Positions 16,155 through 21,210 of a DNA stretch of 24,173 nt are shown here, one piece after another. This DNA is from a virus. The position numbers and the translations under genes were made by a program. Under the pieces are notes generated by a model. It ran no database searches and was not told where the DNA came from. It saw only the letters and a list, made by a program, of their open reading frames with translations. The stretch covers positions 1 to 24,173 of the IMG/VR virus record IMGVR_UViG_3300032285_004521; one strand, 5' to 3'. Numbering within the stretch: position 1 is the first letter of the stretch; each line of letters starts with the position of its first letter.

Positions 16155-16192
16155 GTCTTTTACATAGACTCCAAGAAGCCCATGTAAAAGAC
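16155..16192. repeat. 11-bp perfect inverted repeat upstream of the connector gene
   Basis: Arms GTCTTTTACAT (16155-16165) and ATGTAAAAGAC (16182-16192) are perfect complements separated by 16 bases. Three bases (16190-16192) are shared with the neighbouring capsid terminator hairpin. This could be a second hairpin in the leader of the connector message or an mRNA end-stabilising structure. Confidence 0.8.
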
Positions 16193-16211
16193 AGGGCCTT
16201 TCAGCCCTGTC
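16186..16211 (-). terminator. Hairpin terminator after the capsid gene
   Basis: A perfect 8-base GC-rich stem (GACAGGGC at 16190-16197 with GCCCTGTC at 16204-16211) and a 6-base loop are followed on the minus strand by TTTT (16189-16186). It lies 17 bases after the capsid stop. The short T run suggests partial readthrough, giving more capsid than downstream message. Confidence 0.8.
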
Positions 16212-16227
16212 AGTAGTATGCAACAGA

Positions 16228-18228
16228 TTAAGCTGCGTACTTGAGTGTAGCAACACCGCTACCGTAGTTATTAGTAACACGAACCATACCGGTACGCAAA
16301 CTAGCAACCATGACGCGACGTTGTGTTTCCACCAACTCTTGTGTGTCGATACGCAGACCACGCTGATTACCAACCACAAAGTTGCTAGGAGCAACAGCAA
16401 CAGCACCAAACGCGTTAAGAGCCTTGTCAGCAAACTCGCCAGTAACCAGCACAGGGCTGTTACCAATTTGACCAATTTGACCGGTCAACAAGGTAGCCTG
16501 AGGACCAACTTGGTTCATTGTTTGAAAAGTTGTATCTTCCAGCAAGTTGTAGTAAACATCGCTGTTAACAAGGAAAATAACGTCGGCTGGATCCAAGCCC
16601 CAAACGCCAAGGCCTTTACGCAGTGCACGCAGATTAGCAACTGTAACAACACCGCTAGCAGCCGAAACTGTGGTCAGTGTGCCAGAAGAATCATACGATG
16701 TAAGACCAGCAACAGGATCCGAACCCGAACCTGTACCACGCAAGAAAGCGCGGTCAACAGCACGAGCAACGCGACGAATCATAGCGTCACGAATCACAGG
16801 CATAATAGCGATAAGACTATCTTCCTCTTCTTCGTAAGCTGTGTACTCGTTTGTAGCCACTTTGTATGCGTTAAGAGTAATCTCTTTAAGCACATGAGGG
16901 CTGCCCTGACCAGGCGTACCAACACCAGTTGTAGTAGTAGCAGTTGTACCACCAGCACTATTGCTAGTACCAAACTGTGCGTTAGTAACCCACGAAGCCA
17001 CACCTGCTTCTGGATTAACAGGAATTGTCATCACGTTAGTTTTCATTGCAATATTGCGGAATAGTGGCGCAACAACTAGGCGACGACGAACTTCTTGTTC
17101 CATGTTCAGGGAAACTTCTGTTTCCCAAACAGTAGTACCAGCAACGCCACCAACAGTCAAGCCTGTAGGCAAGTGTGCACCGGACTTCTGAATAAGATCG
17201 CTACCAAACTTAGTAGCTTCAACAGACTTACCAGCCATTTTAGCAAGTAGGACTGCTTTTTCTTTATCTGCATAACTAACAGCATCATTACGATTGTCAG
17301 TAAATTGCATACGCGACTTTTGAATAGCCTCAAGTTCATGAGCCTTTTCACGAAGTGTGGCCTCAAGACCTGCTAGTGCAGACTTGTGCGACTCTTCTTG
17401 TTGAGCAATGCGTTTCTCAATTTCGCCAAGCAAACGCTCAGCACCTGTATCCACTGTTTGCACTTGTGCAACAGCAGCCTTGACGCGTGCGTCAAGATCA
17501 GCTTGAGCTTTTTCTTGAGCTGCTTTTTCTTGAGCAGCTTTAGCCTGGGATTCAGCAATTGCTTTTGCTGTTTCAGCAGCGGCTTGTTTAGCTGTATCGG
17601 CTAACAGTTTTTCCAATTCTTTAGGATCCATGTTCCATTCTTCCTTTGTAGTATTGCCACTTGCTTCCACGTGGGACTCTAGCCCTTTAGCTGATTCCTG
17701 CTTGGGCGCAAATTGCAGTTTAAAAGATTTAAATTCCTCGGCCGTATTAAACGACTTTGAAAGACTAAATAGTGTGTTTTGATTTGCGGGTACGGATACA
17801 ACTGAAATTTCAGTTAGCTCCAGCTCTTTAACAACAAACAGCTCTTTAGCTGCGTCATATTCAGCATCAATAATACGAAAACCGATACTAAATGCACTTA
17901 GAACCCCGTCTTTGATAAGATTAAATACTTCGCCTGCAGCTGCAGAAATCCTAGCCTTAATCCAAAGTCCGCGGTTATCAATTCTGTGGTCTACCATTCT
18001 GCCCACTGGTTCGCTGTGTTGGTGATAGGCTAAAATTACCGGGTTATTTAGGTAATTTGTAATACCACTTTTCCAGACACTGGAGGGCACGATATCACCT
18101 TGTCGATCAGCATCTGCGGTACTTGCGTAGCCTTCGATCATAATCGAGTCGATGTTCATATCTTTGGTAGGTAGATTGCTCTTAGTAAAAGTACTTGTTA
18201 AAGTAATAAGTTTGTTTTTATCTACCAT
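16228..18228 (-). CDS. Fused prohead protease - scaffold - major capsid protein
   Basis: This 666-residue protein has three parts. Residues 1-160 are an HK97-type (U35) prohead protease: EGYASTADADRQGD near 32, His69 in YHQHSEPVG, and Ser114 in LSAFSIGF, with Glu140 a possible third residue. Residues about 160-310 are an Ala/Glu/Lys/Gln coiled coil like the HK97 delta scaffold domain. Residues about 310-666 are an HK97-fold capsid subunit, with EVSLNMEQEVRRRLVV, a TIPVNPEAG strand and a RRVARAVDRAFLRGTG helix. Protease and capsid are separate genes in HK97; here one frame carries both, so self-cleavage must release the capsid subunit unless an internal start is used. Met200 (17631) has a good ribosome site. 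The main ATG at 18228 has GGAG 6-7 bases upstream. Confidence 0.92.
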   Translation of the reverse strand: MVDKNKLITLTSTFTKSNLPTKDMNIDSIMIEGYASTADADRQGDIVPSSVWKSGITNYLNNPVILAYHQHSEPVGRMVDHRIDNRGLWIKARISAAAGEVFNLIKDGVLSAFSIGFRIIDAEYDAAKELFVVKELELTEISVVSVPANQNTLFSLSKSFNTAEEFKSFKLQFAPKQESAKGLESHVEASGNTTKEEWNMDPKELEKLLADTAKQAAAETAKAIAESQAKAAQEKAAQEKAQADLDARVKAAVAQVQTVDTGAERLLGEIEKRIAQQEESHKSALAGLEATLREKAHELEAIQKSRMQFTDNRNDAVSYADKEKAVLLAKMAGKSVEATKFGSDLIQKSGAHLPTGLTVGGVAGTTVWETEVSLNMEQEVRRRLVVAPLFRNIAMKTNVMTIPVNPEAGVASWVTNAQFGTSNSAGGTTATTTTGVGTPGQGSPHVLKEITLNAYKVATNEYTAYEEEEDSLIAIMPVIRDAMIRRVARAVDRAFLRGTGSGSDPVAGLTSYDSSGTLTTVSAASGVVTVANLRALRKGLGVWGLDPADVIFLVNSDVYYNLLEDTTFQTMNQVGPQATLLTGQIGQIGNSPVLVTGEFADKALNAFGAVAVAPSNFVVGNQRGLRIDTQELVETQRRVMVASLRTGMVRVTNNYGSGVATLKYAA
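17631..17647 (-). promoter_or_regulatory. Internal ribosome binding site and ATG inside the capsid fusion
   Basis: AAAGGAAG (17647-17640) lies 8 bases before an in-frame ATG at 17631-17629, codon 200 of the fusion and followed by DPKELEKLL. Initiation here would give a 467-residue scaffold-capsid protein lacking the protease. The sequence supports the site; use in vivo is inferred. Confidence 0.6.
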
Positions 18229-18240
18229 GTATTCTCCCTG

Positions 18241-19433: not shown

Positions 19434-19865
19434 CTAAATAAATTCGCTAAAGAAACTACCATAGCTTTGCTTAGGAACACCACGACCACCACTGGCAACT
19501 TTTTCACGTTGAATCTCAATCCAGCGTGCTTGTTTGGGTTCGCTGCCAGGCTGAGGAGCCTTACCGTACACACCGTGTAGCGCTACATGATGAGGATTAC
19601 AAAGTGTGTAAACCTGATCATATAACTCTGCATGATGACTACTAATAAACTCGTCCCTGACAGCTAAGATTCCCTCATCAGTACTAATATCGTAACCGCA
19701 TCGTTGTGCCCAGCGCTCTAGTAAGAGCGTTATGCTGTGCAAGTGATGCAATTCCAAGTCCTGAGCTGTGTTGCAAATATAGCAATGATCCTGCTTTTCA
19801 TAAGCCGACTTGGCTTTATCTCTAACGTGTTTGACGGGAATCCGTTTGTTTGTATTTTTTGCCAT
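19434..19865 (-). CDS. HNH endonuclease (probable packaging accessory)
   Basis: This 143-residue protein has Cys28-x-x-Cys31 (CYIC), His40-His41-x-His43, and Cys89-Asn90-x-His92-His93 with His97. That is a zinc-bound HNH pattern whose histidines coordinate the metal and attack DNA. The start is ATG at 19865, which shares its A with the TAA of the Dps-like gene (TAATG), so translation is coupled; an upstream in-frame extension to 20039 would lie entirely inside the Dps gene and is not used. HNH proteins beside terminase and portal genes are known to assist DNA cutting by the packaging terminase (HK97 gp74 is the model). The location just before the portal fits that role. A free-standing homing nuclease is the alternative. 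Confidence 0.82.
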   Translation of the reverse strand: MAKNTNKRIPVKHVRDKAKSAYEKQDHCYICNTAQDLELHHLHSITLLLERWAQRCGYDISTDEGILAVRDEFISSHHAELYDQVYTLCNPHHVALHGVYGKAPQPGSEPKQARWIEIQREKVASGGRGVPKQSYGSFFSEFI

Positions 19866-20305
19866 TACTTTAAGGAGCTGCGTAACATCCACGAATGTTT
19901 TTTGTGTGCGTCCTGACGATCTGCTAGGAAGTTTGATAGGCCGTGATCGCCAAAAGTTTCTGCAACCATAAATAGCTGCTGAAACTTTAGTGCCATCATA
20001 TCTGAATCTAGTAGCAACTCCTGCAGCATAGACCGCCAATCACCAGGCATATTTTCATCTTCAACATAAGTTAGTTGTGAAAACTGTGATAGGCTAGCAG
20101 GTGTGACGATTTGCAGTGCGCGAAGTTCTTCAGCATACTGATCAATGCTACCATAAACTTCGGTATAGATACGCTCAAACAGTTCGTGCAGCTCACCAAA
20201 CAGCATACCTTCTACGTTCCAGTGAAAATTTGCAGCTTTTAGGTAAAACGCAAACTCGCTGGCAAATGCGCGTTTTAGTTCTAGGTAGTACTCTGTTTTG
20301 TCCAT
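19865..20305 (-). CDS. Dps / ferritin-like protein
   Basis: This 146-residue four-helix protein matches the Dps family, whose dodecamers bind DNA and oxidise and store iron using peroxide. The ferroxidase ligands of E. coli Dps (His51, His63, Asp67, Asp78, Glu82) have exact counterparts in spacing: His28, His40, Glu44, Asp55, Glu59, with Asp67 replaced by Glu. The surrounding pattern NFHWNVEG..F..LHELFE..Y matches. The C-terminus (DAHKKHSWMLRSSL) is typical. The Lys-rich N-terminal tail used by E. coli Dps to bind DNA is missing, so DNA binding is uncertain. It is the first gene after a strong promoter and is coupled to the HNH gene. It probably protects DNA or limits metal damage; a structural role in the particle is also possible. 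Confidence 0.85.
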   Translation of the reverse strand: MDKTEYYLELKRAFASEFAFYLKAANFHWNVEGMLFGELHELFERIYTEVYGSIDQYAEELRALQIVTPASLSQFSQLTYVEDENMPGDWRSMLQELLLDSDMMALKFQQLFMVAETFGDHGLSNFLADRQDAHKKHSWMLRSSLK

Positions 20306-20457: not shown

Positions 20458-21210
20458 ATGACTTGTGGAATTTATAAATTAAAATTTAATAATACTAATA
20501 AATTATATATTGGGCAATCTATTAATATTGAAGATAGATATTTATCACATATACGAAATATGCGTTCTAATAATAGTTCTAATAAACTATTAGAGGCATA
20601 TAATATATATGGTATTCCTCAATATGAAATAATTTTAGAATGTGCTGAAGATGAATTAGATATCTATGAAAACGAAGCAATACAGATATTTGATAGTTAT
20701 AATAATGGATTCAATACACTTGAAACTGCTGAAGAAATGCCCAAATGGAAAAATAAACTAAAAGGTGAAGAGGGGCCGACTGCTATATATACAAATGATC
20801 AAATATTACAAGCAATTAATTTAATGTGTGATCCATTATTTACTTTAGTAAAAATATCAGAACTTACTAATATTAAATATACTACTATTAGAAAAATATC
20901 GCAGGGTACACAACACTTATGGGTTTTGGAACAATACCCTGAATTATGGAATAGAATGTTAGCTACTAGAACAGAACGTAAAGCTAATAATGTAAAAAAT
21001 AGGTCTGAATTATTAAAATATAAATTTTGTGCAAAATCTCAAGGTATAGTATATCCTTTAGTTATATTTACAGATGGAACTGTGCATAATATAGAAAACT
21101 TTTCAGAATTTTGCAGAATTAATAATTTACAGGCTGCCAATCTTAGAAAAGTAATAAATGGCAAAAGAATTTCACACAAAGGTTGGAAATTATATAATCA
21201 AAGTGTATAA
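20458..21210 (+). CDS. GIY-YIG family (homing-type) endonuclease
   Basis: This is the only plus-strand gene, 250 residues. The GIY-YIG nuclease domain covers about residues 1-90: GIY 4-6, YIG 17-19, Arg27, His31 and Glu71, matching the catalytic Tyr, Arg and Glu pattern of I-TevI. A helix-turn-helix-like segment (TLVKISELTNIKYTTIRKISQG, about 130-150) and a C-terminal motif about 207-246 ending KGWKL resemble the DNA-binding modules of phage homing endonucleases. The gene is much more AT-rich than its neighbours (two sample lines gave roughly 17% and 28% GC). It contains only one CTAG, whereas the rest of the window is rich in them. It has its own promoter and ribosome site. Its last 13 bases overlap the end of terL in the opposite direction. 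It is likely a free-standing mobile gene inserted here. Confidence 0.88.
   Translation: MTCGIYKLKFNNTNKLYIGQSINIEDRYLSHIRNMRSNNSSNKLLEAYNIYGIPQYEIILECAEDELDIYENEAIQIFDSYNNGFNTLETAEEMPKWKNKLKGEEGPTAIYTNDQILQAINLMCDPLFTLVKISELTNIKYTTIRKISQGTQHLWVLEQYPELWNRMLATRTERKANNVKNRSELLKYKFCAKSQGIVYPLVIFTDGTVHNIENFSEFCRINNLQAANLRKVINGKRISHKGWKLYNQSV

Follow-up and report, generated by a model that had tools for sequence, protein, structure and literature searches.

A conserved putative internal start nested in the protease-scaffold-capsid gene of uncultured T5-related viruses

How are the right few copies of a protease brought into a prohead of hundreds of capsid subunits? This is a general question of assembly, to which one nested gene seems to be the answer in a large group of uncultured T5-related viruses: the protease is covalently carried on a capsid subunit. 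We analysed one such gene in a stretch of viral DNA of 24,173 nucleotides, here called the window. The preliminary description of this locus reported a frame of 666 residues with protease, scaffold and capsid fold, and proposed that an internal start at codon 200 would bypass the protease. As an alternative, it considered the site a remnant of a former gene boundary. The comparison with related genes makes it very probable that this is a nested gene with two starts, encoding a protease-scaffold-capsid protein and a scaffold-capsid protein.

One frame from protease to capsid

The gene and its parts are the following:
16228..18228, minus strand: fused gene for prohead protease, scaffold (delta-like) segment and major capsid protein; a single open frame of 666 aa with an ATG start
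17761..18153, minus strand: protease domain (Peptidase_S78), residues 26-156, from Pfam and NCBIfam matches
17179..17631, minus strand: scaffold (delta-like) segment, about residues 200-350, from helices in the model and the T5 alignment; its 3' end is an estimate from alignments to pb8 and to the mature capsid protein of T5
16228..17178, minus strand: HK97-fold capsid domain, from about residue 351 to the end, stop codon included; presumed mature capsid protein

The domain content given in the preliminary description is borne out by Pfam, NCBIfam, Foldseek and profile matches. Peptidase_S78 (PF04586) matches residues 26-156 with 62.3 bits (cut-off 21), and the prohead protease family TIGR01543 reaches 74.3 bits (cut-off 59). 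Two residues, H69 and S114, are invariant across 23 diverse rows. Phage_capsid matches residues 376-650 with 43 bits (cut-off 24). A profile built from 23 relatives matches the T5/DT57C capsids, with E-values of 1.7e-102 for 8ho3 and 2.5e-101 for 8zvi.

The AlphaFold model is modest (mean pLDDT 59). Foldseek searches with it place the T5 and DT57C capsids at the top and the T4 gp21 protease further down. In the model, residues 173-201 form a linker of low confidence, and long helices span residues 202-253, 263-305 and 319-332. Because this linker precedes the helices that start at 202, Met200 is placed at the junction. Modelled helices over residues 202-332, behind a linker, fit what is expected of a delta-like scaffold.

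The frame is uninterrupted in the window, and likewise in each of the 223 distinct fused relatives sampled. Its neighbours follow the order portal, fused gene, head completion protein. Directly past the capsid stop, ahead of the head completion gene, there is a terminator-like hairpin with a T-run (16190-16211, minus strand). Klebsiella phage Sugarland likewise has an annotated terminator immediately after the capsid gene.

Other frames nearby were also noted. A gene for a ferritin-like (Dps-type) protein (PF00210) is located at 19865-20305 on the minus strand, between the terminase and portal genes. It is overlapped by an HNH-like frame (19434-20039, minus strand), whose annotated TTG start is probably too early. 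On the plus strand, the frame at 20458-21210 has an N-terminal GIY...YIG motif, and resembles a homing endonuclease that has inserted next to the gene for the large terminase.

Conservation of the internal site

The two starts and their ribosome sites (SD) are placed as follows:
18234..18239, minus strand: AGGGAG, the SD that serves the full-length start at 18226-18228 (ATG), with a duplex energy of -8.2 kcal/mol; this and all other SD energies were computed with the E. coli anti-SD, which may differ from that of the host
17640..17647, minus strand: internal ribosome site AAAGGAAG, 8 bases ahead of the internal ATG
17629..17631, minus strand: internal start codon ATG, Met200, matching the start of the separate T5-like capsid gene

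All fused relatives come from metagenomic contigs of uncultured viruses. The 223 distinct fused genes are a sample, into which the best 80 loci per scan were entered, and they form 74, 50, 30 and 17 clusters at 80, 70, 60 and 50% identity. Divergent members were recruited by patterns that do not use the internal site (VPANQNT, ATNEYTA, DRxGD and similar).

The preliminary description tied the value of the site to its presence in close relatives. A start codon and an SD are found at the junction in 223 of 223 sampled fused genes, 222 of them with ATG and one with GTG, which supports a usable internal start that would bypass the protease. In the sole GTG gene (L341), the codon is preceded by AAAGGAGAA, a strong SD. 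At 60% identity, 29 of the 30 clusters have ATG and an SD at -5.4 kcal/mol or better, the 30th being that of L341, while this value is reached by 7.7% of regions of equal length taken at random from these genes. With a threshold of -4.3 kcal/mol, the numbers are 29 of 30 clusters against 11.3% of such regions. One group of variants (L040 and relatives, termed EMEM) carries AAGGAAATGGAAATG, in which the SD is followed by two in-frame ATGs, two codons apart.

Considering only the best 80 relatives (67-100% identity), all 80 have Met200 within one open frame. The SD includes a Lys codon, which is AAG in all 80, when AAG makes up 28% of the Lys codons in these genes. Likewise, all 23 rows have AAG at Lys195, against a median of 29% for other Lys columns. 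Met200 also stands apart from other methionines. Among 39 representatives of the 80% identity clusters, it is the only conserved Met column with an SD, the other four having none, and its site reaches -5.4 kcal/mol or better in 39 of 39. For the other internal ATGs of these genes, the mean energy of pairing with the anti-SD is -1.4 kcal/mol, and -5.4 is attained in 5%. The internal start ranks near the bottom of its gene for folding, with a median rank of 7%, and of 19% for the window's own gene.

The peptide encoded across the SD varies freely (TKEE, PNEE, SKGD, VFGD, DKTE, EVQE, TMEI, ASRK), and the SD core is found in all three codon registers among the fused genes. Such varying peptides and registers point to selection on the nucleotides, and not on the protein alone. 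The SD codons also show synonymous conservation. A codon-shuffle test inside single genes gives a median p of about 0.26-0.30; this test is weak because the acidic and basic peptide itself favours A and G. The force of the sequence evidence is thus in the combined result across genes and in the turnover of the peptide. On this evidence, a protein motif cannot explain the pattern over the SD, and a ribosome site can. The comparison indicates that the internal start is maintained by selection, and is neither a chance occurrence nor a decaying remnant.

The hairpin upstream of the internal start

A second conserved feature is found next to this site, identified by silent-site depression, alignment fold, a codon null and a covariance model:
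17656..17716, minus strand: conserved RNA hairpin 5' of the internal start
17716-17708 with 17664-17656, minus strand: its outer helix
17694-17678, minus strand: its inner hairpin, UCAGCU-AAAG-GGCUAGA

The hairpin ends 8 bases ahead of the internal SD. Within the window's subclade, silent sites are more depressed over codons ~170-206 than anywhere else in the gene (58 independent gene pairs). The z-values are uncalibrated, with a spread over the gene of 3.1, but these codons still give the lowest windows. At codons 179-185, 10 synonymous differences were observed and 89 expected. In 51 distinct rows, 97% of the hairpin cells pair, against 26-38% with the partner strand slid. The observed pairs are 13.7 of 14, compared with 8.8 for synonymous codons sampled within each gene and a maximum of 9.4 in 500 draws.

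One pair alternates between A-U and G-C at the synonymous third positions of codons 172 and 190. Across 134 genes, this pair is G-C in 58, A-U in 39 and G-U in 4, with mismatches chiefly where residue 190 is Lys. Tree-aware analysis of the pair leaves 4 independent contrasts, which almost without exception go the way expected but are too few for significance. The covariation in the alignment appears real but thin, and the case for the hairpin is built on silent-site conservation and the codon null.

With the covariance model, each of the 12 subclade contigs searched has a single copy, at this position; the deepest fused lineages and T5-like phages give no match. Most deeper fused lineages have no hairpin, yet keep the SD and start. 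In Rfam, no family comes near threshold for the hairpin.

Within the subclade of the window, the inner hairpin coincides with an invariant or nearly invariant linker motif, SAKGLE(S/A) (17671-17694, minus strand). Its codons are largely fixed, with an identical GGG in 45 of 45 representatives and CTA in 43 of 45. The motif could also act in another way, for example as a site of cleavage.

Other explanations of the conserved stretch were considered and rejected. As for an overlapping gene, the other sense frames have stops in nearly all rows, and the one antisense frame that is mostly open varies in length between relatives. As for a promoter, the stretch holds no sigma-70-like site on the minus strand, and its 17-base motif has a single exact match in each genome, located at the capsid gene.

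The position of the hairpin suggests that it affects internal initiation. As a tentative further proposal, it may be a cis-acting RNA element within coding sequence that governs how frequently ribosomes initiate at Met200, and thereby the proportion of protease-bearing and protease-free capsid subunits in the prohead. An unlikely alternative is a separate transcript as the source of the short form, through a promoter or an RNA processing site in the protease part, with the hairpin as the processing site. Both the hairpin and the synonymous depression sit immediately 5' of the SD, as this would require, and herpesvirus UL26/UL26.5 offers a precedent. The lack of a sigma-70-like promoter there on the minus strand argues against it, as do the single-copy motif, unlike a phage promoter class, and the persistence of SD and start in most deeper fused lineages, which have no hairpin. 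Even so, two products from the same nested start would result anyway.

Origin, products and related systems

Among cultured phages, the nearest relatives are T5-like, and these encode the protease and the capsid precursor in separate adjacent genes. In Vibrio phage phi 3 these genes are in frame, with the boundary AAG GAA AAC TAA ACC ATG, and the matching stretch of the window reads AAG GAA GAA TGG AAC ATG. Since this in-frame boundary aligns with the window, Met200 is taken as homologous to the start of the T5-like capsid gene. In a tree of 56 protease-capsid pairs, the separate forms are all on one side of one branch (100/100), so a single change between fused and separate states suffices. 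The tree is unrooted, with a midpoint only, and fits both a stop lost and a stop gained in T5-like phages. No relative was found in two scans of cellular genome contigs. In the record of Aeromonas phage Akh-2, stops interrupt the protease and capsid frames and only fragments are annotated, perhaps through sequencing errors.

This homology upholds one part of the alternative in the preliminary description, in that the site corresponds to the start of the separate capsid gene in T5-like phages. The other part fails: the site appears to be kept by selection, and hence is not dead. An inert remnant would mean that loss of the ancestral stop joined the two genes and left the full-length protein as the sole product, with a protease on every subunit. 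The homologous capsid start and the placement of the fused state on one side of a single branch agree with this, and fused protease-capsid proteins with no reported internal start are known (PMC6536676; NF045541). On the other hand, SD and start persist in the 30 clusters at 60% identity while the surrounding peptide changes, and a dead site would have decayed over such divergence, including its synonymously conserved codons. We consider an inert remnant very improbable. Weakest of all is a feature of the protein, such as an autocleavage site that frees the protease, with the SD likeness as a by-product of a Lys-Glu-rich linker: SAKGLE is conserved in the linker of the window's subclade and a fused protease needs some release, but the nucleotide pattern is conserved through unrelated peptides, three registers and synonymous codons, and deeper fused lineages without SAKGLE still keep SD and start.

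The nested gene with two starts builds on the computed domain content, the homology of Met200 and the nucleotide-level conservation; from these we infer that both proteins are made, their ratio, their co-assembly and the self-release of the protease. Ribosomes that start at 18228 would make the protease-scaffold-capsid protein. Those that start on this message at Met200 (17631) would make a scaffold-capsid protein homologous to the complete T5 precursor pb8. The two could co-assemble in one prohead, because they share the scaffold and capsid parts. The long form would then be the carrier that brings the protease into the prohead, where it would cut the scaffold from all subunits and afterwards free itself. 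In the window's subclade, the hairpin near the internal SD would probably tune internal initiation.

A second S78 protease was sought in 11 longer fused-gene contigs, of 45-109 kb, and the fused one was the only one found in each. The long form would then also have to be made, as no other S78 protease was found in these 11 contigs. A pool of many short and few long products is plausible. SD strength does not predict this excess of the short form, because the SD of the full-length start is stronger than the internal one in 33 of 38 representatives.

The conserved internal start would thus supply subunits without protease, and the prediction is two N-termini from one gene, with the hairpin as a candidate control element. 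For annotation, this calls for caution: the main capsid precursor may be missed if the long frame alone is called.

Parts of this arrangement are known from other systems. The herpesvirus UL26/UL26.5 genes give a protease-scaffold protein and the scaffold alone, which have a common C-terminal part and co-assemble. The likeness is in the protease-bearing and protease-free products. They differ in being made from separate transcripts, with the capsid protein separate and not in the fusion, whereas here scaffold-capsid is nested in one gene.

In lambda C/Nu3, an in-frame internal start for the scaffold lies inside the protease gene. Genes I/Z of Mu and relatives such as PaMx73 have an in-frame internal start with an SD in the protease gene, which gives a scaffold product free of protease (PMC4378225). 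Both resemble the present gene in having a protease-bearing frame with an in-frame internal start and an SD. In both, however, the internal start yields only the scaffold, and a separate gene encodes the capsid, whereas here the nested frame continues through the capsid to 16228.

Fused protease-capsid proteins were described in Paracoccus prophages and lactococcal c2 (PMC6536676). These fusions, including family NF045541, have both parts in one frame of ~700 residues, as here. The Paracoccus proteins have a ClpP-like protease and a Mu gpT-like capsid domain with no internal start described, in contrast to the S78 protease and T5-like capsid found here. The match of our gene to NF045541 (prohead protease/major capsid fusion) is 59.2 bits, far under the cut-off of 525. 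In the full-text literature, mostly without subscription papers, we found no internal start described in a protease-scaffold-capsid fusion and no description of the hairpin. Nested scaffold starts and protease-capsid fusions are thus already known, and their combination with a complete scaffold-capsid precursor was not found described.

The nearest comparison is with T5 and T5-like phages (Demerecviridae). The T5 prohead I has 775 copies of pb8, from which the scaffold is cut off by pb11 (PMC5292684). As in the window, the homologous protease (pb11) is followed by the capsid precursor (pb8), and the order of portal, protease/capsid and head completion genes is that seen around the fused gene. 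The T5-like capsid precursor also has an N-terminal scaffold domain, and starts at the homologous point, preceded by the same SD motif. The difference is that T5-like phages have two genes with a stop between them, whereas here there is one frame, with the capsid start nested inside it.
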